NCBI RefSeq assembly: GCF_002252635.1
Contig: NZ_NQKX01000004.1
Coordinates: 124,001-188,000, forward strand
Reading direction: 5' to 3'
Length of the DNA stretch: 64,000 nt
Source of the DNA: Synechococcus sp. MW101C3
GTDB taxonomy: Bacteria; Cyanobacteriota; Cyanobacteriia; PCC-6307; Cyanobiaceae
Shown: positions 44,725-60,376 of the stretch, piece after piece
How positions within the stretch are numbered: position 1 is the stretch's first letter
Layout of the letters: every line of letters starts with the position of its first letter
Program-made: the position numbers and the translations under genes
The notes under the pieces: model-generated
Told to the model about the DNA's origin: nothing
The model's database searches: none
What the model saw: the letters and a program-made list of their open reading frames with translations, nothing else

Positions 44725-46311
44725 TCAGCCCTTGGCTGGTTCAAGAGCTTCATCATGGTGCCGCTGCAGGAGGCTCTTTGGGAGCGGTCCCTCCAAATGT
44801 TCCCAAGGCAACAACTTTTCATGGGGCCAGCGCTGGTGGATCACCTCCTGCCAAGGCGGTGGTGACGGCAGCGCAGCGGGTGCGGCGGCCAGCGCGTCGC
44901 GATAGGCCGCCTTCCAGCCGCCCAGCTGCCCGTGACGGCCGCGCACGGCGGCGATCACCGGCGCCAGGCGCCGGTCACTGCGGGAGAGCAACGCCTGGAT
45001 CACGCTCCAGCCGTAGCTCTCAGGCCGCAGCTCGATGCCCTTGGGTTGAAGGCGGCGGGCCAGCCGCTTGAGCCGCTTCTCCGCTTCCGGCCGCACCCCT
45101 TCCCACTGGAAGGGGGTGTGGGCCTTGGGCACAAAGGTGCTGACGCCGAGGCTGAGCCGCAGCCCCGGCGTGGCCGCCTTGATGGCGAGCAGCAGATCGG
45201 CGGTGGCTTCGATGTCGGCGTCGTCTTCCGTGGGCAGGCCGGCCATGCCGTAGAGCTTCAGGCCGCTGAGCCCGCCTTCCTTGGCGTAGCGGGCGGCGGC
45301 GAAGATCTCCTCGGTGGCGAGCTTCTTGTTCACCACCCGGCGCATGCGTTCGCTGCCGCTTTCGATCGCGATCGTGAGCGACTTGCTGCCGCGCTTGGCC
45401 AGGATCCGCCCCAGCTGGGGGGTCACGGTGGCAGCCCGCACGGAGCTGACGCTCACGCGCGTGCCCTCGAAGCGATCACCATCGAGCCAGGTGAGCAGAT
45501 CGGCGAACTGCGGGTGCTGGGTGACGGAGGCCCCCAGCAGGCCCAGCCGCTGGGTGGCGGTGAGGCCCTTCTCCACGGCGGGGATGAGGCCGTCGTCGAG
45601 GGAGGGGGTGCGGAAGGGCAGGGTGAGGTAGCTGGCCAGGCAGAAGCGGCAGAGCTCCGGGCAGCTGCGCACCACTTCCACCATGTGGATGGAGGGCCAG
45701 GCCGCCTCCGGGGTGATCACGGTGGAGTGGCTGAGGGTGTTGCCGCGCCAGGTCTGCTTGGCGATGGTGGCCGGTAGGCCCGGCTCGATCGGCTCCACCG
45801 CCAGCAGCTCACCCGCTGCGCCGTAGCGAGGGGCGTAGAGCGATGGCACGTAGATCCCCGGGATCTGGGCCAGTGCCCGCAGTCGCTCAGCCCGCGGCTC
45901 CTGGCGCCGGGCCTGGACGGCATCGATGAAGGCGGGCAGCAGCAGCTCGCCATCGCCCAGCAGCACCGCATCAAAGAAGGGCGCCAGCGGTTCGGGGTTG
46001 GCGGTGAGCACCGGACCGCCGCCGAACACGATCGGATCGCGCTCGCCCCGCTCCTGGCTCCAGAGCGGAATGCCCAGCTGCTCCAGCAGATCGAGCAGCA
46101 CGGGGCCATCGAGCTCCCAGCTGAGCGACAGGCCGAACAGATCAAGCTGGCGGTGGGGCGGATCGCCCTGGTCGGTGAACAGGCGCCGCACATCCACATC
46201 GCTGCGGCTGGCCAGGCTGGCCCACACCACCTGGTATCCCAGGCTGGTGATCCCCACTGAATAGGTGCTCGGAAAGGCCAGCACCGCCTTCAGCGCCCCC
46301 AGCTCCGGCAC
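44725..46311 (-). CDS. Cobalamin-type radical SAM protein
   Basis: A 528-residue radical SAM protein with an N-terminal B12-binding-like domain ([18 protein letters not shown], then [20 protein letters not shown]). The radical SAM cluster motif CPELCRFC lies in [17 protein letters not shown], about residue 225. The later [16 protein letters not shown] and [13 protein letters not shown] blocks match a cyanobacterial family of unknown substrate (TIGR03960-like). The start is a GTG at 46311; the frame continues upstream without a better start. This is the last core gene before the integron. Confidence 0.85.
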
Positions 46312-46468: not shown

Positions 46469-46902
46469 ATGACCGCCCCTCGCCCTGCTGGCTTGATCCA
46501 GCGCTACCGGGAGGAGCTGCAGGTGCGGCACTACGCCCGCCGGACCGTGAAGACCTACGAGCAGTGGCTGCGCCGCTTTCTGCGCTTTCACGGCCTGCGA
46601 CACCCACGGGAGATGGGCTGTTCCGAGGTGAATGCCTTCCTCAATCACCTAGCGGTGGACCTGCAGGTGAGTGCCTCAACCCAGAACCAGGCCTTGAGTG
46701 CGCTGCTGTTGCTGGAGTGAGCAAAGTTGCCAGCTGCCATACGTTTCGCCATTCCTTTGCCACGCACCTTCTGGAACGGGGCCAGGACATCCGTACGATC
46801 CAGGAATTGTTGGGTCATCAGGATGTGAGCACCACGATGATCTACACCCATGTGCTCAACCGTGGACCCCTAGGCGTGAGCAGCCCCGCAGACTTTATGT
46901 AA
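46469..46902 (+). pseudogene. intI: Integron integrase IntI, internally deleted
   Basis: Two fragments in different frames match the ends of integron integrases. 46469-46720 encodes 83 residues of the N-terminal DNA-binding domain ([22 protein letters not shown] and [14 protein letters not shown]), ending at a TGA. 46717-46902 encodes the C-terminal 61 residues with the tyrosine recombinase HxxR box ([13 protein letters not shown]), [14 protein letters not shown] with the nucleophilic Tyr, and the IntI-like end [14 protein letters not shown]. Compared with IntI1, about 180-190 central residues are missing, including the first catalytic Arg and the IntI-specific extra domain. The gene is therefore inactive as it stands. 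It reads towards the cassettes, opposite to class 1 integrons. Confidence 0.88.
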
Positions 46903-47273
46903 CTGCACGAACATGTGGTTCACTGACCAGAGAACCACATGAGTGTTCTCCTTAAGGTTAGGAAGGATCTAGGCTGCTTGGGATTTTTCGACGAGACGCA
47001 TCCACACGATGGACTTGGTTCACAGAAGCAACGGAGTTAGTCGGGCTGGTTCTCAGAACCGTCCAATGACAAGTTGGACTGCCAATTGTAAATAGCTACT
47101 ACAGTATTGCACACGCTGGATCACTAATACGCCGAATTCGGTTGATGTCATTTCTAGAATTCGCTTATCCCAATCTGCCTTGCAACATCTTTGCTTAACA
47201 TGTCCAGCATATGCGCATCCCGTGGTTCCGCCTTGGTCTATGATGATGCCGTTCTTGACTTTCCCTAATTATC
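46903..47273. promoter_or_regulatory. attI region between broken intI and first cassette gene
   Basis: This 371-bp gap has no gene. It holds a perfect 10-bp inverted repeat at 46912-46921 and 46932-46941 with a 10-nt loop. Two GTTAG-type sites lie at 46957 (GTTAGGA) and 47036 (GTTAGTC). The attI core is at 47061-47079. The two upstream GTTAG sites could be accessory IntI-binding repeats, which is inference. After 47080 the first cassette begins with 194 bp of leader; no convincing promoter hexamers were seen. Confidence 0.5.
47061..47079 (+). other. attI recombination core
   Basis: The 19-bp sequence reads GTCCAA, a 7-base spacer ending ACAAG, then TTGGAC: an inverted pair of IntI boxes. The class 1 attI core has the same layout (CTAA, a 7-base spacer containing ACAAAG, TTAG). 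The simple site GTTGGAC is at 47073-47079. Cutting after its G gives a cassette beginning TTGGAC, and the first attC downstream has the perfectly complementary R'' box GTCCAAC at 47929. That match supports this as the insertion point. Confidence 0.8.
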
Positions 47274-47558
47274 ATGAAGTTCTTGCAATCAGTAGGTCTA
47301 GTACTGGCTACGTTGACCTGTTCACATGCAGCTAGCGCTGCCAGCGTTTTCACTTTCAGCAATGGCTGCGAGATGACCTGCAGTGGAAGTTGGAGTTTTG
47401 GGCCCAATGGTGGTGTTTCGTGCAATGGCACAATTACAAACAAGACATCGAGTTGCCCCAAGCGTGTGCAGGCTGCGCCGATAGAATCGGAGAAGTCGCG
47501 TACTGCTGCTCCCTCGACGCAGCAGAACAACCAGACTTTTTGCAACGACGGCAGGTAG
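47274..47558 (+). CDS. Small secreted Cys-containing protein (cassette 1)
   Basis: A 94-residue protein with a clear signal peptide (MKFLQSVGLVLATLTCSHAASA) and a short mature domain. The mature part has four or five cysteines (for example NGCEMTCSG, VSCNG, SSCPK, FCND) and a Ser/Gln-rich tail. It is probably exported and disulphide-bonded; I do not recognise the family. It is the first cassette gene, nearest to attI, the position usually best expressed in integrons. Confidence 0.6.
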   Translation: MKFLQSVGLVLATLTCSHAASAASVFTFSNGCEMTCSGSWSFGPNGGVSCNGTITNKTSSCPKRVQAAPIESEKSRTAAPSTQQNNQTFCNDGR

Positions 47559-47928
47559 GCAACCTTAGCGCCTAGCCAGAGCTTTGATGGCTCGCCCTGA
47601 TTGATGCACAATTAGATCTTTTCGGCGTGGATGTATCGTGCGCAGTCAATACCTTATTTGGCAAATGATCGGCTCTTATTGTTGCTCTCCATGACTTTTC
47701 TTCATTGATATGTCATGTTGCTCTTGCTATGGGCGTAATGACTTAGGGTCCTCAGTGCGTGTCGACGAAGCTTAGCCTCCACGTCGTACATGCTTACAGC
47801 TTGCTGCCCTATGGAATACTCGCTTAGGGCGTCAACTCTTCTGCAGCTTGCCTTATCTCACATATTATTGAAACTCGCGCCCTGTAAACGCCATTATGCA
47901 TTTTCTTGATATGACACTCAGCGTCATC
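47559..47928. other. Non-coding 3' part of cassette 1
   Basis: This 370-bp stretch between the small secreted gene and the first attC has frequent stops in all frames and no feature I can support. A faint GCCTAGC followed 42 bp later by ATTAGAT near 47570-47620 might be an eroded attC, which would make this two fused cassettes. The stem arms do not pair, so I do not call it. Confidence 0.4.
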
Positions 47929-48017
47929 GTCCAACAATGCCATTCACCAGTGCCGCCACCAGAGGGTAACCGCGATATATAAAGCCCTCTGCGGCCTGGT
48001 GATGGCAAGAGTTAGAC
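47929..48017 (+). other. attC site 1 (89 bp)
   Basis: R'' GTCCAAC (47929-47935) and R' GTTAGAC (48011-48017) flank imperfect arms TGCCATTCACCAGTGCC and GGCCTGGTGATGGCA that pair with extrahelical bases. This is stem family A of the array. Confidence 0.92.
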
Positions 48018-48073
48018 CGTCAGCAGCTGCTGTCAGCAGACCCCATCCTCCAACTGATTTTCCCCAAACTCTC

Positions 48074-48613
48074 ATGGCAAACTTGCTCTACGTCGATAAC
48101 TCCAACGTATGGATCGAAGGCATGCATGTCTCCGCCGTTGAGAAAGGGCTTGCGCCTGATGTTTGGGCAGCAGCTCAAAACAAGATCTGCGACTACGATT
48201 GGCAACTTGATTTCGGAAAGCTTTTTGGATTTGCTGGCGGCGACGCGTCTGAGGTTAAAAAAGCCATGCTATTTGGCTCACGCCCTCCAAAGAATGACTC
48301 ACTTTGGGTAGCGGCTGAGCGAAAGGGTTTTGAAGTTGTCGTCTATGACAGAAACAAGGCTGGCAAAGAAAAGAAGATCGATACAGATATCGTTGCATGC
48401 ATGATGGAGGACTCATACGAGATCCTGGTGATTGGCGAGGATGAGATTACCCTGGTCTCCGGAGATGCCGATTACGTTCCAGCCATAGAAAAACTTAAGC
48501 GCAGAGGAATTGCGGTTAATGTCGTCTTTTGGGATCATGCCGCTCGCGAACTTAAAGAAGTTGCTAGCAAGTTTGTCAGCCTCAATGAATACCTCTGGCT
48601 AGTTACAAGGTGA
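48074..48613 (+). CDS. NYN domain (PIN-like) ribonuclease candidate (cassette 2)
   Basis: A 179-residue protein of the NYN family, PIN-like nucleases often acting on RNA. The acidic active-site pattern is complete: D8 and N11 in LLYVDNSNVWIEG, D103 and D105 in KKIDTDIVACM, and D131/D133 in TLVSGDADYVP. The ATG at 48074 follows the cassette boundary by 62 bp. The protein fills the whole domain without extra modules. In an integron cassette a stand-alone nuclease could be a toxin, defence or RNA-processing gene; no antitoxin is next to it. Function inferred from family only. Confidence 0.85.
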   Translation: MANLLYVDNSNVWIEGMHVSAVEKGLAPDVWAAAQNKICDYDWQLDFGKLFGFAGGDASEVKKAMLFGSRPPKNDSLWVAAERKGFEVVVYDRNKAGKEKKIDTDIVACMMEDSYEILVIGEDEITLVSGDADYVPAIEKLKRRGIAVNVVFWDHAARELKEVASKFVSLNEYLWLVTR

Positions 48614-48663
48614 GAGTCTATTGAGGTCTACCGTCAAGCGCATGTCTGTATAGCCATTAAGCG

Positions 48664-48748
48664 GTCTAACATCCAGATACAGAAGACGGGAGCGAAGGTT
48701 TGCTTCTGTGCTCAGATCCTTTCCCGCTTCTGATCTGGAGCGTTAGAC
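48664..48748 (+). other. attC site 2 (85 bp)
   Basis: R'' GTCTAAC (48664-48670) and R' GTTAGAC (48742-48748). Arms ATCCAGATACAGAAGACGGG and CCCGCTTCTGATCTGG pair with bulges (stem family B). It ends cassette 2. Confidence 0.93.
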
Positions 48749-48783
48749 CCACTCCCCAGACCTGACTAGACTGGCCTAAAGCT

Positions 48784-50133
48784 ATGAGCATGATGGACGA
48801 CTCAGAAACAATCCAGCCAGATGGAGTCACCACGGATGAGGTCATTGACTCTTCTGACGAAGGAGATCTCACGCTAGAGGGGACAAAGCCAACCATCAAG
48901 CTTGACAAGAATGATCGGAGCCTATCCGAGTTCCATCGTTGGTATACCAAAGACAGGATCATCGTAGACCCTGAGTGGCAACGGAAATATGTATGGGATC
49001 GCAAGAGAGCCTCAAGGCTTGTCGAATCATTTTTAATTGATCTGCCTGTACCAGTCATTTATTTGGCTGTCAACGACGACGGCAAGTACGAAGTCATTGA
49101 CGGACTCCAGCGCCTTACTTCCATATTTGACTACTTCGAGAATGGATATGCATTAACTGGCTTGGAGATCAGGAAGGAACTTGTAGGGAAGCAATTTTCA
49201 GAGCTTGATACCGAGCTTCAGTCAAAACTTGAGGATGCGACCCTCAGAACTTTTGAGCTTAGCCAGACAGCTCCAAAAGATTTGATGTTTATCATCTTTG
49301 AGCGCCTCAACACGGGAGGCATGGCGCTTAACGATATGGAGATTCGTAATTGTCTCTATCGAGGTGGGCTTAATGACTTGATTAAGGAGCTTTGCCAGCT
49401 CGAAGAGTTTAAGAACTCAGCGGGGCAGAGCGGCCTTGACAAGAGGATGGCAGACCGCACTCTAATCCTTCGCTATTTAGCGTTCTATCAGATGACCTAC
49501 ACAAAGGCGAAGAAGGGCTTAAAAGCATTTTTCAACGAGTTTTTTACTACCTATCGAAATCCCACCGCAGAAAAGACGAAGGAGTTTAGAGGGGCGTTTA
49601 AACATGCGATGCGTGCTTGCCAAACGGTGTTTGGGAATAAGGCCTTTCGCCTTCGGCGCGTCTACGAAAAAGGCGGCGGAGAATGGGCTTCTCGCATTAA
49701 CGCCTCTATCTTCCAAGTTATATCAGTGTCGTTTAACGACTACGATATTGGCATAATCACTAGATCGGCGGACAGCATTTATGAGGCCTACATCGACTTG
49801 ATCGAAGCCGATGAAAGATGGGTCGCGTCGGTCACGGCGGCCACAGGTGACTATTCTCGTATAGAGTATGCGTTTGAAACTTGGCAAGCCCGACTCAAAG
49901 ATGCGGTGTCTGGCGAAAGGGCAAATGATGCAGTTCGTCTCTTTAGCCGAAGGTTGAAAGAAGAGATGTTTGAAGCCGATAATTCGTGTTCGATATGCGG
50001 CCAAAAGATTGTTATGCTAAATGATGCCGCGCTTGACCACAATCTTCAATACTGGAAGGGCGGTGAGACGGTTCCTGTGAATGCTCGCTTGGCTCACCGT
50101 ACGTGTAACTGGAAGCGTGGCAAAGGGGTCTAA
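48784..50133 (+). CDS. DUF262-HNH nuclease, GmrSD/type IV restriction-like (cassette 3)
   Basis: A 449-residue protein. The N-terminal DUF262 domain has the conserved QRKYVWD, DGLQR (106-110) and FERLNTGG (172-179) motifs that bind and hydrolyse nucleotide in GmrS-like proteins. The C-terminus is an HNH nuclease: C402-x2-C405, D418-H419, then H438-x2-C441-N442. Single-chain DUF262-HNH proteins are related to GmrSD, BrxU and SspE defence nucleases that act on modified phage DNA, so antiphage defence is the likely role (inference). The stop codon TAA lies inside the R'' box of its attC, a tight cassette fit. ATGs at 48790 and 48793 are alternative starts. Confidence 0.87.
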   Translation: MSMMDDSETIQPDGVTTDEVIDSSDEGDLTLEGTKPTIKLDKNDRSLSEFHRWYTKDRIIVDPEWQRKYVWDRKRASRLVESFLIDLPVPVIYLAVNDDGKYEVIDGLQRLTSIFDYFENGYALTGLEIRKELVGKQFSELDTELQSKLEDATLRTFELSQTAPKDLMFIIFERLNTGGMALNDMEIRNCLYRGGLNDLIKELCQLEEFKNSAGQSGLDKRMADRTLILRYLAFYQMTYTKAKKGLKAFFNEFFTTYRNPTAEKTKEFRGAFKHAMRACQTVFGNKAFRLRRVYEKGGGEWASRINASIFQVISVSFNDYDIGIITRSADSIYEAYIDLIEADERWVASVTAATGDYSRIEYAFETWQARLKDAVSGERANDAVRLFSRRLKEEMFEADNSCSICGQKIVMLNDAALDHNLQYWKGGETVPVNARLAHRTCNWKRGKGV

Positions 50134-50219
50134 CCAGCCCCTTGAGTGGACAGGCCCTCGCAGACTATCTGCAGTGCCACCCCAGTCTTCTTGCCTGCCA
50201 CTCAGGGGCAGCGTTATAC
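50128..50219 (+). other. attC site 3 (92 bp)
   Basis: R'' GTCTAAC (50128-50134) and R' GTTATAC (50213-50219). Arms CCCCTTGAGTGGACAGG and CCTGCCACTCAGGGG pair almost fully. This stem is unlike the others in the array. Confidence 0.92.
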
Positions 50220-50269
50220 AGGCGCACCTATCCTATACTCCCGATCAATCCCAACGGTTCTCTATTTCC

Positions 50270-51355
50270 ATGAACGAGATCCAGGCCTCAAAGCTCTTCG
50301 GCCAACTGCCTGAGGTCCTTCAGGCTTATCTGGCTCAGCGATCTGGAGAATACGGCATCCCTCCGCACGACCTCCTGAGAAAGATACCCGAGGGACTTCA
50401 TGACAATCCGCTGGAGATCTTTAACTTCCTCAAGGAAAAGCATATATCTCATATCACAGCAATTTCCAATGGAGGCAGTCCTGATTCATTCATGAATTGG
50501 GTCTTTGAAGATGGGGCCGCCAATAGTGCACGCAACAATGATCCAATGAATATCTTGGAGTTTCTAAATGCACAAGCGGATGCAAGATTGGATTCAATGG
50601 TAGTTGAATTTGGCATCCCTGATCCAGGTACATCCGGTTTCAATCAGCAGTTTGCTGAATTCTTTGGCGTTGAGCAACTGGAATCTGCCCCAGACTTCTC
50701 TGATGTGGGAAATGCTATCCAGGACATTGCTGGGGGTGATCAGATTGTTCGCGAAGCCGCACATCAAGCCTTGCAAGATAGCTTATTTGATGTTGGAGTG
50801 CCTGTCGGTTATGTAACGGTTCGGGGATTGCGCACAGTATGGCCCTTTCTTAGATCTGTAGATTGGAAGCGATTCAGAGCTGATTCGCAATACAGGAACG
50901 CGATGGTATCTAGAGCATTGATGACATTTCGAAATGGAGGATGGAAAGAGGCTGCTAAAGCAGTAGTTGTGGGCTTCCTGATTGCAGCTTTCCCTCCCCT
51001 CTCATACATGATGGCTGCTCTTGGCTTAACAGGAGTTGCCTCAATTGGTATTCGCTGGCTTGCCACTCACCATGGTCTGCTCCCAACAGGAGTGGCGGCC
51101 GCCCTCAATATGATTGCTGGCTTCCTCGAAAGAGTGGCAGGTTTCCTCAGGAATGTCCTCGTGCTTGTTGAAAAGATCGTTGACGTTGTTATTGAAGCTG
51201 GTTCTACAGCTGTGAAGAAGATTGTTCAGGGCGGACAGCAGTTTATTAGCTCTGTTTCTAAGACAGCCAAAGCACTTGCTAATGGAGTAGCGACAATTGC
51301 AAAGTCTATCTCCTCTTGGGTCTTTGGCTGGTTCTGCAGGCCGGCCTTTGCGTAA
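50270..51355 (+). CDS. Unknown 361-residue protein with hydrophobic/amphipathic C-terminus (cassette 4)
   Basis: I do not recognise this family. The first 200 residues are soluble and mixed helical (FGQLPEVLQAYLAQRSGEYG, DVGNAIQDIAGGDQ). Residues about 224-262 are strongly hydrophobic (VVVGFLIAAFPPLSYMMAALGL). The last 90 residues form long amphipathic helices rich in Val/Ala/Lys (FLRNVLVLVEKIVDVVIEAG, ending SSWVFGWF). Such tails occur in membrane-acting proteins, but no function is claimed. The ATG at 50270 lies 56 bp after the cassette boundary and the stop lies 18 bp before R''. Confidence 0.7.
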   Translation: MNEIQASKLFGQLPEVLQAYLAQRSGEYGIPPHDLLRKIPEGLHDNPLEIFNFLKEKHISHITAISNGGSPDSFMNWVFEDGAANSARNNDPMNILEFLNAQADARLDSMVVEFGIPDPGTSGFNQQFAEFFGVEQLESAPDFSDVGNAIQDIAGGDQIVREAAHQALQDSLFDVGVPVGYVTVRGLRTVWPFLRSVDWKRFRADSQYRNAMVSRALMTFRNGGWKEAAKAVVVGFLIAAFPPLSYMMAALGLTGVASIGIRWLATHHGLLPTGVAAALNMIAGFLERVAGFLRNVLVLVEKIVDVVIEAGSTAVKKIVQGGQQFISSVSKTAKALANGVATIAKSISSWVFGWFCRPAFA

Positions 51356-51373
51356 TTCCTTTAAATCATTGCT

Positions 51374-51460
51374 GTATAACATCCAAATTCAGAAGACGGG
51401 TGCAAATGTTGTTGGCATTGCATGGGGATTGCTGCCCGCTTCTGATTTGGAGCGTTAGAC
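51374..51460 (+). other. attC site 4 (87 bp)
   Basis: R'' GTATAAC (51374-51380), perfectly complementary to the cassette 4 start TTATAC, and R' GTTAGAC (51454-51460). The arms are family B, close to attC site 2. Confidence 0.93.
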
Positions 51461-51538
51461 TTATCAGCAACAGATACTGCCATAAACCGTCTAGACCCAT
51501 GCCAAGCGGGGACAGGCTTCTTTTGACGCGAAAAAGCC

Positions 51539-52636
51539 CTATTGCCGAGGATCCTTTTCGACGCAGATTAAAGAATCTACTTCTACGATCAACCGATCAT
51601 ATTTAACGGCTTTGGGTCGAAGAAGAGTGCTGCAGAGATAGTTTGCTATATCTTCTAACTGCGATTTAGTTATCTCCTTCTTTGTTATCTTCTTCATTTT
51701 TTCGTGGATGCTAGTGGCTTCAGAGAGACTTCGGAATGTTGCTGCTCGCTCCTTTCTGAAGTCTTTGGGCCAGTCTTTCTCTTCTGATTGCAAATAATAA
51801 TACTGCGCCTCGGCAACAATCGAAGCCGCCCCAAAGATAATCGCCGTTCTCCCCTTGCCCTCATGCTGGAGTAGCCGACACATCGCCTTGTAGATCTTTG
51901 ATCGTGCGAGAAGAATAAGTGCCTCATTCTGAATTTGGTTGGGGTAGCCCCTCGCGAGTAGGTTATTGAGGAATCCCCAGGCTTCATCATATCTGCCAAG
52001 TTTCTGTAGATAGGAGGGCAGCCTTAGATAAGTGTCAATGCCATAGCTCACAGAAGAGTTCTCGATTTTCTTGTATGCCTCTTTTAAGACTAGAACGGCT
52101 GCTGGCACGTTCCCATCTCGGTAGAGTTCTGTCGCTACCTTGAGGGTTTCGCTGGCCTGCAGTGATTGTACATAATCGATGATGTTGCCAGAATCTGTCC
52201 GAGTGTGTATGATTGCACTTTGTGCAACCCCTTTCCCCTTATCGGAGCAGATCCAGGTAGCTCTATCGGTGTCATGGGGCTTGATTAATCCTTCACTCAT
52301 AAGTTGGCTAACGAATGTCCTGGCATTCCCGCCAACTAAATGTCGATAATACTCAAGACCACTATAGTATTCGATCATCTCTCTGGATAGAGGGGTATCG
52401 AGAAACTTTTTTAGAAACTGTACCTGTCCTGCGCTCAGCCTTGGCTGCGGTTCGTTGGATTGTGTAGGGCTGGTGGCATTGCCTCCGTCGAGTAATCGAC
52501 GATCAAGGGGAGGTGGGGGCGGAGGTGGTGGCGGAATGCCCAGCACCGTTCGGGAAAGACTTCCGCTATGTCGCCTGCATCGTGGGCATTCTGTTGCATG
52601 GCTGGGGAGTTCTTCCCCGCATTCGATGCAGATCAT
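51539..52636 (-). CDS. Zinc-ribbon, poly-proline protein, reverse-oriented (cassette 5)
   Basis: A 365-residue protein transcribed against the array, so it must carry its own promoter. The N-terminus is a zinc ribbon (C3, C6, C17, C20), followed by nine consecutive prolines (35-43). A small winged-helix-like segment comes next (LSAGQVQFLKKFLDTPLSREM, FVSQLMSEGLIKPHD). The C-terminal half is helical and TPR-like (YLQKLGRYDEAWGFLNNLLARG). I do not recognise the family. A regulatory or sensor role would be speculation. Confidence 0.72.
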   Translation of the reverse strand: MICIECGEELPSHATECPRCRRHSGSLSRTVLGIPPPPPPPPPLDRRLLDGGNATSPTQSNEPQPRLSAGQVQFLKKFLDTPLSREMIEYYSGLEYYRHLVGGNARTFVSQLMSEGLIKPHDTDRATWICSDKGKGVAQSAIIHTRTDSGNIIDYVQSLQASETLKVATELYRDGNVPAAVLVLKEAYKKIENSSVSYGIDTYLRLPSYLQKLGRYDEAWGFLNNLLARGYPNQIQNEALILLARSKIYKAMCRLLQHEGKGRTAIIFGAASIVAEAQYYYLQSEEKDWPKDFRKERAATFRSLSEATSIHEKMKKITKKEITKSQLEDIANYLCSTLLRPKAVKYDRLIVEVDSLICVEKDPRQ

Positions 52637-52991
52637 TGTTACCTCCCACCTGTTCGAGGATTACCTTAAGTCTACTGATGCGATGCTTGCCTGTTGGCTT
52701 TCGGCTGGCTCTGGCGGTTTCTGACTCTTGGGTGTTTGTCATTGGAAAGTTTGAAGGAGCCAGTTTTGCTTAGCGACCACGGTCGTGTGAACTTTGTTCA
52801 ACCTGCTAGAGAAGCACAAACAGGGTGAGAGACTTTTCGATATGATCAAGTTTTTTCGAATCAGGCGGGATCGCCATGAAGCAAGTCACGATCCTCGGCA
52901 CCACCTTGAATGCTGTTGTCATATCCACCAAGCTCAACCATAGTCAGCACTATCCCAGATTGCACGAGTCCTGCAGATATAAACCAAGAAA
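52637..52991. other. Leader region of the reverse gene in cassette 5
   Basis: 355 bp with no supported gene. It must contain the promoter of the minus-strand zinc-ribbon gene, but I could not pick convincing -35/-10 boxes. A plus-strand open frame from 52876 runs into the attC and is probably chance. Confidence 0.4.
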
Positions 52992-53081
52992 GTCTAACAA
53001 TGCCATCCACCTGTGCCGCCTCCGAATGAACCTTTTACACCCCTCGGTCTATCCGCGGCCAGGTGATGGCAAGCGTTAGCT
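52992..53081 (+). other. attC site 5 (90 bp)
   Basis: R'' GTCTAAC (52992-52998) complements the cassette 5 start. R' is GTTAGCT (53075-53081). The arms TGCCATCCACCTGTGCCGC and GCGGCCAGGTGATGGCA are family A. Confidence 0.92.
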
Positions 53082-53131
53082 GCACAGGAAGGCCGAGGTC
53101 GGTATCGTTGATGTGATGGTGGCGCTTTCGG

Positions 53132-53365
53132 ATGCCGACAATCCTCAGAAGCGGTCCATATAGGGTCTACTTCTACAGTCACGAGCCAAACGAGCCTCCC
53201 CATGTTCATGTCGACAGAGATAAGGCGTCTTGCAAGGTCTGGCTTGTTCCTGTTGCACTGTCCTCGAGCCTTGGTTTCAGCGCCAGAGAGCTGCGTGAAA
53301 TTGAACGGCTGGTCAGCTTGAACAGAGCTATCCTGCTGAAAGCATGGGAGGAGTTTCATGGCTAA
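53132..53365 (+). CDS. DUF4160 protein (cassette 6, first of pair)
   Basis: A 77-residue protein with the DUF4160 signature YRVYFYSHEPNEPPHVHVDRD and the conserved GFSARELREIERLV helix. DUF4160 genes nearly always precede a DUF2442 gene, and the pair has been proposed to be toxin-antitoxin-like. The 3' end overlaps the next gene by 8 bp, indicating translational coupling. Pairs of this kind are frequent cargo in integron cassettes and other mobile DNA. Confidence 0.87.
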   Translation: MPTILRSGPYRVYFYSHEPNEPPHVHVDRDKASCKVWLVPVALSSSLGFSARELREIERLVSLNRAILLKAWEEFHG

Positions 53366-53618
53366 CCCTGGTGAGCAGGTCACTGACGTTGCGTTGACAG
53401 AAGACAGGCTGATCGTCGACCTGGCTGACGGTCGTTCTATCTCGGTACCGCTGGCTTGGTTCCCAAGGCTTCTACATGCAACCTCCCAGGAGCGTGACAA
53501 CTGGGAGATTGCAGGGGCTGGCTACGGAATCCACTGGCCAGATGTCGATGAGGATTTAAGTGTGGAAGGCCTGCTTCGAGGTGCGCCAGCGCCCCAGGCA
53601 AAGGCTCTGGTCAGCTAA
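53358..53618 (+). CDS. DUF2442 protein (cassette 6, second of pair)
   Basis: An 86-residue DUF2442 protein with VALTEDRLIVDLADGRSISVPLAWFPRL (positions 11-38, given by ends) and the family end GYGIHWPDVDEDLSVEGLLRG. DUF2442 folds resemble a small DNA-binding or antitoxin-like domain. The stop TAA is inside the R'' box of the following attC, so the gene fills the cassette completely. It overlaps the DUF4160 gene by 8 bp. Confidence 0.9.
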   Translation: MANPGEQVTDVALTEDRLIVDLADGRSISVPLAWFPRLLHATSQERDNWEIAGAGYGIHWPDVDEDLSVEGLLRGAPAPQAKALVS

Positions 53619-53702
53619 CACCGCTATGCACCTGAGCCGCCGCCATAACGCTATATTCTTCGCCGCGCAAACCTTGCGGCCAGGTGATGGCGAGCGTTGG
53701 GC
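53613..53702 (+). other. attC site 6 (90 bp)
   Basis: R'' AGCTAAC (53613-53619) is the perfect complement of the unusual cassette 6 start TTAGCT. R' is GTTGGGC (53696-53702). The arms are family A. Confidence 0.94.
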
Positions 53703-53720
53703 GACGATGGAGGTGATTTC

Positions 53721-54353
53721 GTGAAGTGGTTAACGGATCTTTTAGGTTCTGTAGCAACCACCGGTCTATGGGTGTTCGCCGTTTACAAGATCAGCAGATA
53801 TGCCATAGATAAGTTTGAGGCCTCAATCGGCCGATCAGTCGACAGACTGCGACGCCTAGGCAGTGTAGAGTTCGATCCAACACCAAACAGGGAGTTGCCA
53901 CAAGACGAGGCTTCACCAGTCGTCGAGACACGTGCTCTCCCGTCACCTGCAACGTCACTTCAGGAGCGGAAACTCGAAGAAATAAGGGCATGGGTGCAGC
54001 AGCTCCCAGCGGCTGAACGTGAGGAGCGGCTTCAATCAGCGCTTGCCGCGTGGCAGATCTCTTGGCACTTCGAGTTTGTGCACTCGAATATACTGGGAAG
54101 TCAGCTATCACTGCTGAAGTCCTTGAACTCTCAGTCCATCACGGTAGATCAAGTGCGCGCAGGGTACGATCGTTTTGCAGTCGCCAATCCTCAGCTTTAT
54201 AGTAACTACCCGTACGAAAGGTGGCTGACCTGGCTACGGGACGCTGCTCGGTGCGTTGACGAGAGCGAAGGAATCATGTCAATCACTGAAGAAGGACGAT
54301 CCTTTCTTAATTACTTGGTTACGCGGGGGTATTCCCTTGAGAGGCCTGGATAA
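53721..54353 (+). CDS. Membrane-anchored protein, unknown (cassette 7)
   Basis: A 210-residue protein. The GTG at 53721 has GGAGGT 7 bases upstream, a strong start only 25 bp inside the cassette. One N-terminal hydrophobic segment (WLTDLLGSVATTGLWVFAVYKI) is followed by a charged linker. A helical C-terminal domain then has paired tryptophans (WQISWHFEFVHSNILGSQLSLL, YPYERWLTWLRDAARCVD, ITEEGRSFLNYLVTRG). The last block resembles a winged-helix end. I do not recognise the family. Confidence 0.72.
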   Translation: MKWLTDLLGSVATTGLWVFAVYKISRYAIDKFEASIGRSVDRLRRLGSVEFDPTPNRELPQDEASPVVETRALPSPATSLQERKLEEIRAWVQQLPAAEREERLQSALAAWQISWHFEFVHSNILGSQLSLLKSLNSQSITVDQVRAGYDRFAVANPQLYSNYPYERWLTWLRDAARCVDESEGIMSITEEGRSFLNYLVTRGYSLERPG

Positions 54354-54366
54354 ATGTGGCACCAAT

Positions 54367-54456
54367 GCTCAACACCACCATGCACCAGAGCCGCCGCCGC
54401 TCATGTCGTATCTACAGCTCGATCTCCTTGCGGCCTGGTGATGGCGAACGTTATAC
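54367..54456 (+). other. attC site 7 (90 bp)
   Basis: R'' GCTCAAC (54367-54373), one transition from the complement of TTGGGC, and R' GTTATAC (54450-54456). The arms CCATGCACCAGAGCCGCC and GCGGCCTGGTGATGG are family A. Confidence 0.92.
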
Positions 54457-54545
54457 GGACGAAAAGACGTAGTCACAGACCCACCAAGGACGGGGGGTCT
54501 CACAGCTTAGGTGAGTTATCGAGTCATTCATCCCAAGGCATTAGC

Positions 54546-54848
54546 CTAAAATTGTCTTTTTGCCTCTCGGCACCACTTTACATACTCCAATAGCTGCCCC
54601 TCGCTGGCAGGCTCTACTCGAATTGCATGAGGGTCTCCGCCGACTGGCAAGTAAAAAGTAACTACTGCAGGGATTCGCGATGCGACATATGTTGAGCGAA
54701 TATGATCAACCATTTTTCGTGAGCACTTGAAGTGAACGTCAGTGTTTAGCGCGAAATACGGATCTGACTCCATGAATCCATAGTCAGCATTCACAATGAA
54801 CCCGATAGTCTGGCTCACATTGTTGAAGCTCTCAAGAAGATAGGGCAT
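54546..54848 (-). CDS. Unknown 100-residue protein, reverse-oriented (cassette 8)
   Basis: A 100-residue soluble protein (IGFIVNADYGFMESDPYFAL, VVTFYLPVGGDPHAIRVEPA, YVKWCREAKRQF), unrecognised. It is transcribed against the array and lies 41 bp downstream of a 57-residue gene on the same strand, probably a two-gene operon with its own promoter. The Shine-Dalgarno is weak. Confidence 0.55.
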   Translation of the reverse strand: MPYLLESFNNVSQTIGFIVNADYGFMESDPYFALNTDVHFKCSRKMVDHIRSTYVASRIPAVVTFYLPVGGDPHAIRVEPASEGQLLEYVKWCREAKRQF

Positions 54849-54889
54849 TGCCTAGGAGTCATCTCAGCGGAGACTGTACTATAGATTGC

Positions 54890-55063
54890 TTAAGTCTCAG
54901 CATCTGCTTGCCAAGCTAGCCATGCTTTTGGAAATGTATCCGAAGATGCAGGTCCAAGATGATAGTTAAACAAAGTCTTTTGCGGATAGTCCGATTTCTC
55001 TGCTATCGAATATCCTTTGGCATTTAGTGCTTCAGGCAGCTTTGCGGGAGCGCTTCTCTTCAT
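54890..55063 (-). CDS. Very small protein, 57 residues, reverse-oriented (cassette 8)
   Basis: An ATG preceded by AAGGAAGGA and a 6-base spacer opens a 57-codon frame, starting MKRSAPAKLPEALNAKGYSI and ending AWLAWQADAET. The good ribosome site, the charged soluble composition and the placement upstream of the 100-residue gene support it as real. The N-terminal MKRSAPAKLPEALNAKGY looks like a small regulator or antitoxin-like peptide, which is speculation. Confidence 0.55.
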   Translation of the reverse strand: MKRSAPAKLPEALNAKGYSIAEKSDYPQKTLFNYHLGPASSDTFPKAWLAWQADAET

Positions 55064-55191
55064 TGCTATTCCTTCCTTGCTCTTAGCCTTTGCTTCTTGA
55101 GCTCACTAAGCAGGATTATGGAATAGTGGCCATGCGCCCTCAACGCGTAGGAGAGCCTATGGTCGGTGATATAGGCATCCTGCTGTGAACC

Positions 55192-55274
55192 GCATAACAT
55201 CAAGATCCAGCGGGCTGCCCGAGAATCCTTGGCGAGTGTTTCCAATCCTTCCGCCGCTGATCTTGGCGTTAGGC
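55192..55274 (+). other. attC site 8 (83 bp)
   Basis: R'' GCATAAC (55192-55198), one transition from the complement of TTATAC, and R' GTTAGGC (55268-55274). The arms TCAAGATCCAGCGGGC and CCGCCGCTGATCTTG define stem family C. Confidence 0.93.
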
Positions 55275-55870
55275 AACCCAATGAGATCAGCTCAACGGAA
55301 GTGATGAGGTAACCCGCAGTTGTCTTTATCCACAGACCCAAGAGTCGAACCGAAAGCCAAGCACTGAGCGGGAGAGGGGAGGCAAGGAGCAAGGGCTTCA
55401 TCCTGGGGCTGATGGACCGCCGGTGCCTCAGCTGCGACCTCTATGAGGGCCAGGTCGAGGATGTGATCGGTGCCTGTCTGCTGCTCCATCAGACATGTCT
55501 GGCCCAGGCGGATGGTGGTATCCCGACGTCGTTGACCAAGTGGCCCGTTCCAGCGCGCAGGTGGCCCCATTCCTGGCGCACCTTGGCCTCCGCCCACCGC
55601 TGCGCCTGTCTGCAGGGTCCGTGCGCCAGCCACCTACGTGCGGCAGGTGTTCGACGGTCGTCGCTACCTGGAGCAGGGAACCGAGGGAACCGACGCTGCG
55701 GGATGGGGCCCCACTGGATCCGCGACGGTGATGGCCTGGATGCCTGCTGCGGATGCTGTCCGGCGGATCTCAGCGTTCAGTCACAAGGCTCAATCGAGGC
55801 AGCAGACAGCCCATACGCTCAGGAGGTTCCAGTGGAACCGCACTGGGACATCCCTACATCTACCAGCTCG
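55275..55870. other. 5' part of cassette 9: GC-rich, degraded or non-coding
   Basis: About 600 bp with GC-rich, host-like composition after about 55,380. Open frames exist on both strands, but none looks like a conserved protein. One plus-strand frame (around 55,640-55,780; VFDGRRYLEQGTEGTDAAGWG) could be a remnant of a coding sequence. It may be chromosomal DNA captured upstream of the secreted-protein gene. Confidence 0.4.
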
Positions 55871-56614
55871 ATGAAGACTCGCCTCCAACGCGCCGGTGCC
55901 CTGCTGGGTCCTGGCCTCCTGCTGTTCACGGCGTCCGCTCCGTTCCACCAGCTCGCGTCCGCCGAAACGCTGGTGCGAGCCGCGGGCCGCTGCAAGCTGG
56001 AGAGAGCGGGCAATGAGCTCTTCAACGGTCACTGCAGCTTCAAGCACAAGGCGGCCGGTGGCACCGATGCCTTTGTGGTGAAGCTCGATGACGGCACCGA
56101 CTTCAACTTCTCTGGCCCCAACCCTCAGGCCCTGCAACTGCAGACCTACGCCGGGATCGTGAACGTGCGCCACAACGCCAAGCCCGACCACGATGTGTTC
56201 CTGTGGAACGCAGACGGGGGAGATCATCGCCTCTCGGTGAAGCTCGACAACGTGCAGAACCCTGACGTGGATTTCGAGGACAGGCCCCAGAAGGCCACCA
56301 GCGCAACTCTGGTCGGTGTCGCGCTGGGAGGGTTGATCGGCGCTCTGATTGCCGGATCGGACAAGGGCGGCAGCAGCGAACCCGCCCGCGTGGGAGCCCC
56401 GGTGAGCGCACTGCAGTCGCTGGTGGGGGTGAAGGGCGCCAGTGCCGAGAGCGAGATGACCAGCAAGGGGTACACCTACCGCGGGGGTGACCAGATCGGC
56501 GACAGTGCCTTCACCTACTGGGAGCAGCCCCGCACCAACAGCTGCGTGGCTGTGCGTACCACCAACGGACGGTATCAGTCGATCACCTATACCGAACCCA
56601 GCAAGTGCAGGTGA
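55871..56614 (+). CDS. Exported protein with internal hydrophobic segment, unknown (cassette 9)
   Basis: A 247-residue protein with a signal peptide (about 1-31, ending ASA). A beta-rich domain follows (FVVKLDDGTDFNFSGPNPQAL, AGIVNVRHNAKPDHDVFLW), then a glycine-rich hydrophobic segment (LVGVALGGLIGALIAGS, about 147-163). The C-terminal motif GYTYRGGDQIGDSAFTYWEQ, ending NGRYQSITYTEPSKC, recurs in many uncharacterised bacterial exported proteins. Codon use is host-like and GC-rich, unlike the neighbouring cassettes. It is followed by a hairpin terminator. Confidence 0.7.
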   Translation: MKTRLQRAGALLGPGLLLFTASAPFHQLASAETLVRAAGRCKLERAGNELFNGHCSFKHKAAGGTDAFVVKLDDGTDFNFSGPNPQALQLQTYAGIVNVRHNAKPDHDVFLWNADGGDHRLSVKLDNVQNPDVDFEDRPQKATSATLVGVALGGLIGALIAGSDKGGSSEPARVGAPVSALQSLVGVKGASAESEMTSKGYTYRGGDQIGDSAFTYWEQPRTNSCVAVRTTNGRYQSITYTEPSKCR

Positions 56615-56645
56615 TCGCCTGAACGCTCAGGCCATTGATTGCTCT

Positions 56646-56673
56646 GGCCGCCGGCCCTCCGGACGGCGGCCTT
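56646..56673 (+). terminator. Hairpin terminator after the exported protein gene
   Basis: A perfect 8-bp stem GGCCGCCG/CGGCGGCC (56646-56653 with 56664-56671), 10-nt loop, followed by TTGGGCTTG. The T-tract is weak, but the position 31 bp after the stop fits a terminator. Confidence 0.65.
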
Positions 56674-56727
56674 GGGCTTGACTTGTGACACCCAGAATGT
56701 CATAGAACACCTTAAATCCAGCCACGG

Positions 56728-56855
56728 AATCAATGGGAGACTCTGGAAAGGCCAATACGATCGCGAGGTGATTTCCCTGCCAGTGCAGTGCTAGGCGCGC
56801 TTATCCGATTCGCTGTCTACAGGCTGCTGAGCGTGGCACGTCGAGCCGCAAGCCA
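56728..56855 (+). pseudogene. Possible IS6-family transposase remnant
   Basis: Two frames joined by a frameshift read WKGQYDREVISLPVQC, then a stop, then ARRAYPIRCLQAAERGTSS. The pattern W-K-G-x-(Y/F)-x-x-E-V-I, then Y-P-L-S-Y-R-x-L-E-x-x-x-x-E-R-G, is the start of IS6-type transposases. Only about 40 codons remain and no terminal repeats were found. Similarity was judged by eye, so the call is tentative. Confidence 0.35.
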
Positions 56856-56858
56856 AGC

Positions 56859-57587
56859 GTATGGATCGGAGTCCAATTATACCTGGGCTATCTGGCAATC
56901 TTCTTTGCCACATGGATCGTCAATAGGGTCGACTACAATCGGATTGGTGAGAATGCGCTAACCACGAAGCTGTGGTATGCGTTTCCAACTCTTTTCGGAT
57001 CTGCATTCCTTGTGGTTGCCATCACTGCCCTGGGATGGTGGCGCATGGTTCTGTTCGATAAAACGAAATCCGGCCCTCAGTGGGTTTGGATCCTTCCTAT
57101 CGCGATGGCGGGGGTCATTGTGATGAACTTCCTGGGTGTGGTACCGAAACAGCCCACCTCTGAGCTTCTTGGTTGGTCACTACTCGGAGCCGTGGGGGTT
57201 GGATTCGGCGAGGAATTAATCACTCGGGGAAGTCTGATCGTGGGTCTTCGAAGTCGTGTTAGCGAAGGCAAGGTATGGCTGATCAGTTCCCTCTTATTTT
57301 CTGCGCTTCATCTTCCTAACGTCCTCTTCGGATTTCCGCTATGGGCCATGCCTGTACAGGTGCTGTTGACATTCATCATGGGCAGTGGCTTCTACGCCAT
57401 TCGCCGCATGTCCGGCACTCTGATTCTATCGATGATTCTGCATGGGCTTTGGGACAGTGCCTTGTTCCTTAACGTCGCTGTCGGCGGAGCACCCTCCTCT
57501 ATTCAATACTCCGTGTACCCCATCGCGATCATCTGCGTCATCGCAGTCCTTTGTTGGGGGCGGAATGCGCAAGCCCAGCAAGGCTGA
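56859..57587 (+). CDS. CPBP family intramembrane protease, 5' end damaged (cassette 9)
   Basis: CPBP (Abi/CAAX-protease-like) membrane protein with the glutamate-type metal-free motifs GEELITRG, FSALHLPN and HGLWDSAL, in about six hydrophobic spans. The conserved frame extends upstream of the first usable start (GTG at 57012) through another membrane segment (WIGVQLYLGYLAIFFATW, from 56859) with no ATG, GTG or TTG. The original start therefore appears lost, perhaps through the transposase fragment just upstream. From GTG 57012 a 191-residue product could still be made. CPBP proteins mature peptides or provide self-immunity to bacteriocins. Confidence 0.75.
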   Translation, partial: VWIGVQLYLGYLAIFFATWIVNRVDYNRIGENALTTKLWYAFPTLFGSAFLVVAITALGWWRMVLFDKTKSGPQWVWILPIAMAGVIVMNFLGVVPKQPTSELLGWSLLGAVGVGFGEELITRGSLIVGLRSRVSEGKVWLISSLLFSALHLPNVLFGFPLWAMPVQVLLTFIMGSGFYAIRRMSGTLILSMILHGLWDSALFLNVAVGGAPSSIQYSVYPIAIICVIAVLCWGRNAQAQQG

Positions 57588-57689
57588 CGCTTCATAGGTG
57601 CCGACAGCATAGATGCTTCCCTATACTGTAAAAAGGCCTTATGGGTTTCTTCAGATTTGATGCAGCCCCTAGCATCTGTTTCTGAGGTC

Positions 57690-57776
57690 GCCTAACATCA
57701 AGATTCAGCGGGCGCGGCCAGAAATGCCTGATAGATGCATTGCGGTCTTCTCCGCAGCTGATCTTGAGCGTTAGGC
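57690..57776 (+). other. attC site 9 (87 bp)
   Basis: R'' GCCTAAC (57690-57696) is the perfect complement of the cassette 9 start TTAGGC at 55269, across 2.4 kb. R' is GTTAGGC (57770-57776). The arms TCAAGATTCAGCGGGC and CCGCAGCTGATCTTGA are family C. Confidence 0.94.
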
Positions 57777-57824: not shown

Positions 57825-58577
57825 TTGAGCGGAGTCCTCTCGTTGAATAAGCCTGACCTAGTTTCATGGTCGGAGTATTCTGATGCCAATGCTGCGGCTT
57901 CCGACCTCATTCCTTAGGGTGACCCGCATGATGTGCTTAGCGTAGGCGAGCAAGCGTGTATCGAAAGTATAATCGCCAAACTTCAGCTTGGTGAGTATTC
58001 GGAAGCTCATAGCCTTCTCGCGTTTGCGGTTGATTCTTCGGACGAGTTCGGAGAGCATCGTCTCGTAGCTATCACCCGGTGTTTCATCAAGGATGAGTAG
58101 AAGTACGCCTTGATGCTCAAGAGGTTCATGCAAGTCCATGCCATACGCACGTTGAAACAGAGCTGGACGGACACCGTGTTTCGAACACTCAGAAAGGACG
58201 CGGGATACGAAGCGTCTATCACGGTACTGATCACCGCAGAGTTGATCGCCTTGTTCTACTACCGAGCGCTGCAAGTGTGTACGCAGTCCCCGGTCCTTGT
58301 TGTGATTGGCAAGCGTATCTTGGAAGAAGAGGCGGCCCACACTCGATACTAATCTGAGCTGCTTCGGTTTATCCGTGAACGCCGCACTTAACTTCTTCGT
58401 CCTATTTCAGGGGCTCTGCATCGAATGCTATACGCGGGAACAATCGTCGTGGTGTTCGCTGATTATTGCCGAGTTCTGCGTAAGGGCGGATATGGATTGG
58501 TCGGTTTCTGGGCGGCATGCTGGGGTGTGTTTGGCGCTGCCTTTGCTAAGATAGATCCAATTCTGCAAAGTCCGTAG
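57825..58577 (+). pseudogene. Ferritin-like protein gene with four in-frame stops (cassette 10)
   Basis: A single frame of 251 codons, without frameshift, runs from a TTG at 57825 to TAG at 58575, directly against the attC. It is interrupted by TAG 57915, TAG 58098, TAA 58350 and TAA 58389. The product reads like a ferritin-like di-iron protein: DE(stop)KYALMLKRFM, SITVLITAELIALFYYRAL, RILEEEAAHTRY (EExxH), and a C-terminal membrane segment YGLVGFWAACWGVFGAAF. Each stop fits a glutamine codon changed by C to T (CAG or CAA). The last 50 codons from ATG 58425 could be a residual small membrane protein. Fold assignment by eye. Confidence 0.6.
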
Positions 58578-58639
58578 GCGAACTCGCTGATGCAGACATG
58601 CGTCCACATCGGGCGCGACTTATTGGCATAGCGTTAGAG
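58578..58639 (+). other. attC site 10, short and divergent (62 bp)
   Basis: R'' GGCGAAC (58578-58584) is degenerate; R' GTTAGAG (58633-58639). Arms CGCTGATGC and GCATAGCG pair with one extrahelical G. The site is weak alone, but the next cassette starting TTAGAG has R'' CTCTAAC, the perfect complement, at 59368. That supports a real junction here. Confidence 0.7.
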
Positions 58640-58664
58640 CGCAGCACACAAATGAGAACAAGAA

Positions 58665-59363
58665 ATGAAAGCAATGGCTACAGCTAAGTATGTCATCACC
58701 TTGGTCGGTGTTGGAATGCTTGTTGGAGCGTTCCTTTTTTTCAGGAGTACGAGCTCATTTATCGCTGAGGCGACCAAAGCAGAAGGCACTGTGGTTGAAC
58801 TCGAAGAGTCTCGGACTAGTGATTCAACTTTCTATAGTCCTGTTGTTCAATTTACCAGTCTGAATGGTCGGGTCATTGAATTCGTCTCTTCCGCTAGTAG
58901 TAACCCGCCAACATACTCAAAAGGTCAAAAGGTTGAGGTCTTGTACCTCCCGGCAGATCCAAAGCATGCAAAGATTAATGGTTTCTTTCCCCTTTGGGGA
59001 GGTTCAGCCGTTCTCGGTGGAATGGGTAGCGTATTCTTCTCGATCGGAGCTGGCATCATCCTTGCTGGAGCACTGAAGTGCCGCAAAGACGACTATCTAA
59101 AAAATCATGGAACACCAATAGAAACTGACTACCATAGCGTTGAGCTCAACACCGCTATATCAGTCAATGGGTCTTATCCATTCCGAGTTGTGACGCAGTG
59201 GCAGAATCCATGGACTTCTGAGCTGCATGTCTTTAAAAGTAACAGCATCTGGTTTGATCCCTCGAGTTATATTCAGAGTAACAAAATTACGGTATTCATA
59301 GAGAAGGGAAATCCAAGGCATTACTACGTAGATCTCTCTTTTCTCCCGAAGCTTGCAGAATAA
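58665..59363 (+). CDS. DUF3592 membrane protein (cassette 11)
   Basis: A 232-residue protein with an N-terminal membrane segment (YVITLVGVGMLVGAFLFFRS). A DUF3592 beta domain follows (AEGTVVELEESRTSDSTFYSPVVQFTS, KGQKVEVLYLPADPKHAKING; ends of region about 40-110), then a second membrane segment (GGMGSVFFSIGAGIILAGAL). A second beta-rich domain follows (TAISVNGSYPFRVVTQWQNP, ITVFIEKGNPRHYYVDLSFL), a common DUF3592 layout. Function unknown. AT-richer codon use than the host. The stop lies 5 bp before the R'' box. Confidence 0.85.
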   Translation: MKAMATAKYVITLVGVGMLVGAFLFFRSTSSFIAEATKAEGTVVELEESRTSDSTFYSPVVQFTSLNGRVIEFVSSASSNPPTYSKGQKVEVLYLPADPKHAKINGFFPLWGGSAVLGGMGSVFFSIGAGIILAGALKCRKDDYLKNHGTPIETDYHSVELNTAISVNGSYPFRVVTQWQNPWTSELHVFKSNSIWFDPSSYIQSNKITVFIEKGNPRHYYVDLSFLPKLAE

Positions 59364-59367
59364 TGCT

Positions 59368-59374
59368 CTCTAAC
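59368..59374 (+). other. attC R'' box without R' partner (end of cassette 11)
   Basis: CTCTAAC directly follows the DUF3592 stop codon and is the perfect complement of the cassette 11 start TTAGAG at 58634. No matching stem arm or GTTRRRY box is found within 150 bp downstream, so the attC appears truncated here. Confidence 0.75.
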
Positions 59375-60151
59375 AACTCCATCCGCCTCATGACGCTAAC
59401 TTCCGCTACCTGATCCCCCCCCTGAAGCTTCCGGTCGGATACTTTCGCGATCTCCCGTACGGGACACAGCTGCTGAGGGGCCAGGTTGGCGGGCAGCAAT
59501 CAAACCGATTGAGGCCTAGCGCGTGGCTCAAGAGGGTGCGGGCTCACCACTTGAGCAGCCCATCGAGCAAGCCATCGGCCGGCGGTTTTTTCATGCAGCC
59601 CCTAGAAATTAGTGTCGTTGAGCGTCTGCTCCACTCAACACACCTTCAAGCTGCATTTCATACCGGACACGGTCTTGAATGGGCTGCTTGGTGGCGCTGC
59701 TCTCAAGCCCGCAGACCTGCAGCGCCACGCTCGATACCCTGATCAGCTTTGCCAGCGATGACCCGCAGATGGAGGCGGGTTGCCTGTTCGTGAAGATGCG
59801 CGCCACGCGCTCGCCCTGCGGCGCGCCGTGGTGGATCTGCGGCTGCTATCGAACCTGCAGCTGGAGCTTCGCACCACTTCGGCGCTTGCTTCCATGGCCG
59901 GTTTCTGCTGTTTGACGGCGCCGAACTTCATCTGAATGAATAACTGCCTACCCTTGCATGCTTCAACTGACCGATAGCGAGAATCCCATTCTCATTGCCG
60001 GCCTCGTGATCGCCGCTGACCCAGAGTGTTAAGCAGAGGTAATCCTCTCCCATGATATCCTTTTGCCCTAAACGAGTCAATACAGAGAGATGTCGCGCTC
60101 AGGATGTCCGCTTACATCTCGCGTTTGTCCAGTTGCACAACGTTGGCTAGA
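59375..60151. other. Decayed region: coding fragments, no intact gene
   Basis: About 780 bp. A plus-strand frame from about 59391 to 59742 (NFRYLIPPLKLPVGYFRDLPY, then RPSAWLKRV) looks like a fragment of a coding sequence with no start. A second, in another frame near 59785-59905 (ARHALALRRAVVDLRLLS), looks similar. A hairpin GAGATGT/ACATCTC lies at 60086-60120. GTTAAGC at 60028 matches an R' consensus, but no partner arm pairs with it. This is probably an eroded end of the array. Confidence 0.45.
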
Positions 60152-60376
60152 ATGATGAGCAGCCCAATCACGAAGCTCGTCGAGGAAATCGCAAAGGCTT
60201 TTACAGAAGCCGCTCGCGCTCACGTGACCGAACCCTTTTGGGTGACACACTACGGAGCTGTTGAGATCTATCCCAAGCATCTTGTTTATTGGATATGTGT
60301 GAAGTCTGACGCAGAGCGTGACCGACTCGTTCAAAGCACAGAATTGAAGAGCCGACACCGGTCGATCCTCGAATAA
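60152..60376 (+). CDS. Small unknown protein, 74 residues
   Basis: Starts at ATGATG, 10 bp after a CGTTGGCT that resembles an attC R' box, so it may open a cassette. The soluble product (KLVEEIAKAFTEAARAHV, VTHYGAVEIYPKHLVYWI, CVKSDAERDRL) has no family I recognise. The upstream arm and the 3' attC are not recognisable. Confidence 0.5.
   Translation: MMSSPITKLVEEIAKAFTEAARAHVTEPFWVTHYGAVEIYPKHLVYWICVKSDAERDRLVQSTELKSRHRSILE

Follow-up and report, generated by a model that had tools for sequence, protein, structure and literature searches.

A cyanobacterial attI site of a reverse-oriented chromosomal integron and its dispersed copies, probably served by one integrase

A short sequence at the head of a cassette array raises the question of whether it is the site at which the cassettes entered, and similar sites elsewhere in the same genome, many of them without an adjoining integrase gene, raise the question of how those are filled. 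The sequence lies in the window, by which we mean the whole stretch of 64,000 nucleotides that was analysed. Positions 47061-47079 are almost certainly an attI core with its crossover at 47073^47074, and the site is best explained as the attI of a sedentary chromosomal integron in reverse orientation, in a Cyanobium/Synechococcus-type cyanobacterium. The whole statement, to which we give a probability of roughly 0.8, adds to this attI a set of dispersed modules that would be served by one integrase, IntI.

Read directly, 47061-47079 is GTCCAATGACAAGTTGGAC. It comprises an L box, GTCCAAT (47061-47067, +), which is based on the sequence and the site alignment, and an R box, GTTGGAC (47073-47079, +), which is based on the sequence, relatives and matches between cassette starts and R'' boxes. 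The spacer between them is GACAA, 5 nt long and not 7 as the initial annotation had it. The crossover 47073^47074 (G^TT) was placed using homology breakpoints and start/R'' matches, and TTGGAC of the R box is part of cassette 1. The R'' box of the first attC, GTCCAAC, is found exactly 855 bp from 47074 and is the complement of GTTGGAC, as had been claimed. That this match proves the site was too strong a statement for one pair, because a perfect match to GTTGGAC is seen in ~6% of the R'' boxes of the window's genome and 10% of randomly paired starts and R'' boxes match. The matching is strong only as a set: every attI-headed array of this genome (5 of 5) matched perfectly in each of the four variable positions (chance ~10% per array), and 24 of 31 consecutive start/R'' pairs matched versus 3.2 expected from shuffling. 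The description of the site as two inverted IntI boxes holds in that both L and R are present; their 6/7 symmetry is partly luck because TTGGAC comes from the cassette, and in the relative G001 the same L box stands opposite GTTCGAA with a symmetry of 4/7.

The end of homology between relatives marks the same position. G001, a congeneric MAG (88% complete) with an intact intI, can be aligned with the window along 371 bp at 96% identity, starting inside intI and reaching ...CCAATGACAAGTT, and this identity stops exactly at GTT (window 47075), after which the sequences are unrelated; the end of homology thus equals the predicted crossover plus the common TT. The initial annotation had put the insertion point at 47073/47074 and proposed aligning relatives across it, and in this alignment the point proved correct to the base, with continuity up to GTT and then a different cassette in G001. 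An empty attI at the window locus was not found among the relatives compared. Cyanobium sp. CH-040 and two further genomes (G020 and G034) have the same core with some changes, followed by different first cassettes. Ten groups of homologous attI loci gave 505 pairs, which are not independent of one another; where the left flanks were homologous, the identity of core positions was ~1.0 through G-T-T, and beyond it came four bases with a weak RRRY consensus and then an identity of 0.25. The breakpoint in G001, the ten locus groups and the module copies described below bear out the identification of 47061-47079 as an attI core.

Next to this attI with its G^TT crossover lies an integrase-family gene, as expected for an integron; it is a pseudogene in the window and intact in G001 and G002. 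The pseudogene (46472-46902, +) was recognised from TIGR02249 matches and from comparison with these two intact genes. Its N-terminal piece (46472-46720) and C-terminal piece (~46714-46902) are in different frames and match positions 2-74 and 250-313 of TIGR02249, with profile positions 75-249 missing; both fit this model better than the integron integrase model PRK15417. Relative to the intact gene of G001, an internal deletion of ~496 bp and a frameshift have occurred, with the junction near 46705-46717. The deletion at 46705-46717 joins imperfect 10-bp repeats, which are GCTGTTTCTG and GCTGATGCTG in G001, and this fits the expectation for loss between short direct repeats. The gene is transcribed towards attI and the array, with its stop codon ~173 bp before the crossover, an orientation that differs from the divergent intI of class 1. 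Remnants of intI were detected at two further places in the window's genome, and no intact intI was found in that genome (3.03 Mb, 18 contigs; window on contig 4). Because intI is broken here, the system is probably frozen unless integrase comes from outside. On the other side of intI, a TIGR03960-like B12-binding/radical SAM gene (44725-46311, -) points away from it. A close counterpart of this gene stands beside intI in G001 and G020, suggesting that the integron probably occupies the same chromosomal place in several species.

Downstream of the crossover, the window array contains at least nine attCs, all on the same strand. Cassette 1 (47074-48011, +) carries a candidate 94-aa ORF of no family (47274-47558) and attC1 (47929-48017); cassette 2 (48012-48742, +) encodes an NYN-domain protein (48074-48613) before attC2 (48664-48748); and cassette 3 (48743-50213, +) encodes a GmrSD_N/DUF262 protein (48784-50133) before attC3 (50128-50219). 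Cassettes 4 to 9 (50214-57770, +) were delimited by covariance-model attCs at 51374-51460, 52992-53081, 53613-53702, 54367-54456, 55192-55274 and 57690-57776 (all +). The covariance model was used instead of heuristic scans for R''/R' and folding, which caught only some attCs. The first attC scores 79 bits (E 1e-16) with this model, which was built from the nine window attCs, attC1 included. Compensatory changes were seen at 13 of 21 predicted stem pairs among the nine, and the array thus has the single orientation, structured attCs and cassette starts matching their own R'' that characterise an integron. An Rfam search of the window gave no matches. After 57776 the attCs look degenerate, and half attCs are seen in 58351-61852 (GTTAGAG near 58637, GTTGGTT near 61846), which suggests that the array ends in cassettes that have decayed.

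An alignment of 53-54 sites extended the attI upstream of its core. It shows a direct repeat 2, GTGGTTcnCGGAA, a direct repeat 1, GTGGTTCtCGGAACC, 31 bp further on, and then L and R, with the repeats beginning at about -58 and -27; near -160 there is an additional block, GTGGTTATCGGACCCGTGAACCAC, in which the repeat appears as an inverted pair. In the window these elements are block A (46915-46938, +; GTGGTTCACTGACCAGAGAACCAC), in which such an inverted pair comes shortly after the intI stop, repeat 2 (47015-47027, +; TTGGTTCACAGAA) and repeat 1 (47046-47060, +; CTGGTTCTCAGAACC), which starts 31 bp after repeat 2. Block A is at a constant distance in intI-linked and integrase-less sites alike. 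The attI is best explained, from these alignments, as a putative module of ~170 bp made up of block A, repeat 2, repeat 1, L and R. Among 26 independent integrase-less loci, repeat 2 was kept in 20 and block A in 23 (controls, 1 and 0), and neither element had been used in finding the sites. Conservation of the 28-bp core was not counted as evidence at these loci, because the sites had been selected by the core.

The core pattern of 28 bp, with at most three mismatches, was present in 70 of 400 family genomes, and a reversed control in 1. A related degenerate exact pattern matched 58 stretches in 84,980 genomes. The matches belonged to Synechococcus, Cyanobium, Vulcanococcus, Aphanothece and similar cyanobacteria with two exceptions, contigs in MAGs labelled Chitinophagaceae and Bifidobacterium, which are probably misbinned. 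In the genomes searched, this type of predicted site is restricted to one clade. The highest number of core-pattern matches in any genome was 13, in G290.

With a profile of the module (E < 0.001) and the attC covariance model, six attI sites and 36 attCs were detected in the window's genome. Five of the six sites head attC arrays in the correct orientation, and the sixth lies behind another intI remnant. No intI vestige was found upstream of four of these five array-heading sites. The four lie 195-313 bp past the ends of ordinary genes on the same strand, encoding a dCTP deaminase-like protein, an MBL/rhodanese protein, a DUF547 protein and a sulfate permease; the orientation of upstream genes is stated for these four Pfam-checked sites of this genome, as ORF calls elsewhere were too noisy. 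Each of the four arrays is an attC cluster with no neighbouring integrase, i.e., a CALIN, and the attI at its head exceeds that definition. The same genome also has three attC clusters with no recognised attI head (C8:210111-213099, C4:277655-282624 and C3:186852-196948).

The same arrangement was observed in relatives. The window's genome and 18 relatives together contained 70 attI sites, and at least 40 of these had an attC downstream within 6 kb on the same strand; among the attCs listed, one was upstream and none was on the opposite strand. An intI or a remnant was located within 400 bp of 19 of the 70 sites, and 28 of the 40 attI-headed arrays counted had no adjoining intI, a count from which small intI traces below the threshold could escape. 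In most of these genomes a single full-length IntI accompanies one to eight attI sites. Several genomes contain two or more intI matches, a point against a single shared integrase. The curated cut-off was exceeded by an IntI match in 30 of 32 rows of attI- or intI-bearing relatives, in which G125 is included twice. In G290, attI modules at 4301 and 5937 of one locus (L086) are 1.6 kb apart with an attC between them, which places an attI inside an array. In G113, a ~2.5-kb element with copies 99% identical is found at four attI sites (L172, L173, L174 and L175); it carries a tyrosine recombinase gene and an IS91-type transposase (Zn_Tnp_IS91, Y2_Tnp), begins exactly at the attI crossover (GTT-GAACTAAGCCGC), and may use attI as a target.

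Sites without integrase genes hold cassettes that differ between relatives and are shared with other sites. The left flank of the attI at C9:13254 in the window's genome is common to G001 and G002 (91-92% over >4 kb); no intI was found upstream of this site in any of the three congeners, and a different first cassette follows GTT in each. At one attI of Synechococcus sp. BO 8801, for which there was no IntI match in 17 kb, the first cassette shares 96.7% identity with cassette 3 of the window (48742-50219 in this comparison); the intact IntI of this strain lies on a different contig. Cassette 6 has its counterpart in Synechococcus sp. CCY 0621 (97.4% identity), again as the first cassette of an attI, here lacking any IntI match in 8 kb; CCY 0621, like the window's genome, has intI remnants only. 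For cassette 5, the counterpart (91.3% identity) stands first at the intI-linked attI of Vulcanococcus limneticus LL, and a cassette of the C9 array heads an integrase-less attI in G220 (97.1%). In all four shared-cassette cases the similarity starts at the crossover base. Sites with and without a linked intI thus hold cassettes in common.

In integrons generally, it is the bottom strand of attC that IntI recombines with attI (PMC8352920). At the window site, we infer that IntI would bind the repeats, block A and both boxes (L and R) and would exchange the folded bottom strand of an arriving attC at G47073^T47074, so that new cassettes enter at the crossover and older ones are pushed away. One module lies behind intI and others lie behind unrelated genes, with their own arrays, and one IntI per genome would serve all of them in trans, an arrangement that can be called a distributed integron. 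It is probable that a single IntI acts in trans on several attI modules. We hold, with slightly less confidence, that such an integron typically consists of one full-length integrase gene and one to eight complete attI modules, all loaded in trans, and equally that the modules have fixed positions in the chromosome, most of them following a gene other than intI and many with an array of their own. The identity of the site, its crossover, the module copies, the arrays behind them and the sharing of cassettes are all read from sequence, and binding, recombination and action in trans are what these features would imply.

The main alternative is that the integrase-less arrays are relics of several complete integrons that were filled in cis and later lost intI; there would then be no activity in trans, and the window site would be a normal attI belonging to an integron that is dying out. 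A vestige of the intI 3' end persists at some integrase-less sites, which may therefore be decayed integrons filled in cis, and the intI remnants at two further places in the window's genome point the same way, as does the fact that intI pseudogenes are common (about one third, PMC2426708). However, the C9:13254 site has no intI in three congeners and yet three different first cassettes, four of the five attI-headed arrays in the window's genome show no intI vestige, and repeat 2 and block A have been kept at integrase-less sites where the spacers have not. The changes of first cassette could instead have arisen by homologous replacement or excision. The C9 locus and the BO 8801 case thus argue against decay as the whole story while leaving capture in trans unproven, and we regard the relic explanation as unlikely, at rather more than one chance in four.

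The additional arrays might also have arisen by cassette insertion at non-classical genomic sites (attG) rather than at copies of attI. There is precedent for this (Loot et al. 2024, as cited in PMC11023631), and it would suit the three arrays of the window's genome that lack a recognised attI, but five array heads carry the whole ~170-bp module with fixed repeat spacing, far beyond a short degenerate site; the module itself refutes attG insertion for these five, and we consider this origin very improbable. That the window site is a functionless GTTRRRY-like sequence which happens to lie near an array has a negligible probability: the core motif is short and one start/R'' match arises by chance in 6-10% of cases, but in relatives the sites are conserved, the breakpoints are exact to the base and the attCs are directional, which refutes it. 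The reading that we prefer remains the attI of a reverse integron together with dispersed modules that one IntI would load in trans. If this is true, a cell would have several parallel cassette ports and not one, several first positions and with them perhaps several cassettes expressed simultaneously; in addition, some arrays classed as degraded CALINs would be working ports. A family of attI with an exact crossover and dozens of natural variants in named strains also allows attI recognition to be tested beyond class 1.

Integrons in cyanobacteria have been known since Boucher et al. (cited in PMC2426708), integrons and attCs of the phylum have been reported (PMC2426708, PMC8352920, PMC9668308), and an attC model for it exists (PMC8352920). 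The attI outside class 1 is poorly described (PMC9024848), and the initial remark that no attI of this type was known in cyanobacteria agrees with our finding that this attI family appears undescribed. Integrons are described as typically having a single attI, near the integrase (PMC9024848); we found no earlier description of extra or orphan attI sites, or of several full modules per genome, in the open-access literature, which is weak evidence of absence.

In class 1, attI is bound by IntI1 at four positions, -50, -30, -7 and 0 (PMC2117344), and contains two direct repeats (about 65 bp; PMC4792948). The cyanobacterial site resembles attI1 in its L and R boxes, G^TT crossover and two direct repeats upstream, so the class 1 architecture that had been assigned to it stands as a layout. 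It differs in sequence, in the position of the repeats (about -58 and -27), in the extra block near -160, in lying behind the 3' end of intI and not before its 5' end, and in having several copies per genome; the integron is not of class 1. Chromosomal integrons of Treponema share the reverse orientation, with intI transcribed towards attI in the same direction as the cassettes (PMC3607928), whereas the present integron belongs to a different clade, has a different attI and has several attI modules per genome. CALINs, clusters of attC sites lacking an integrase and proposed to be degraded integrons (PMC9024848), resemble our arrays in being away from intI, but many of the cyanobacterial arrays start with a complete attI module at a fixed chromosomal place. 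Action of IntI away from the main attI is documented for delta-attI cassettes and for insertion at attG (PMC12901181; Loot et al. 2024 as cited in PMC11023631), and such action would be shared by the modules described here; those are short non-classical sites or mobile attI fragments, whereas the cyanobacterial sites are complete modules in unmoved flanks.
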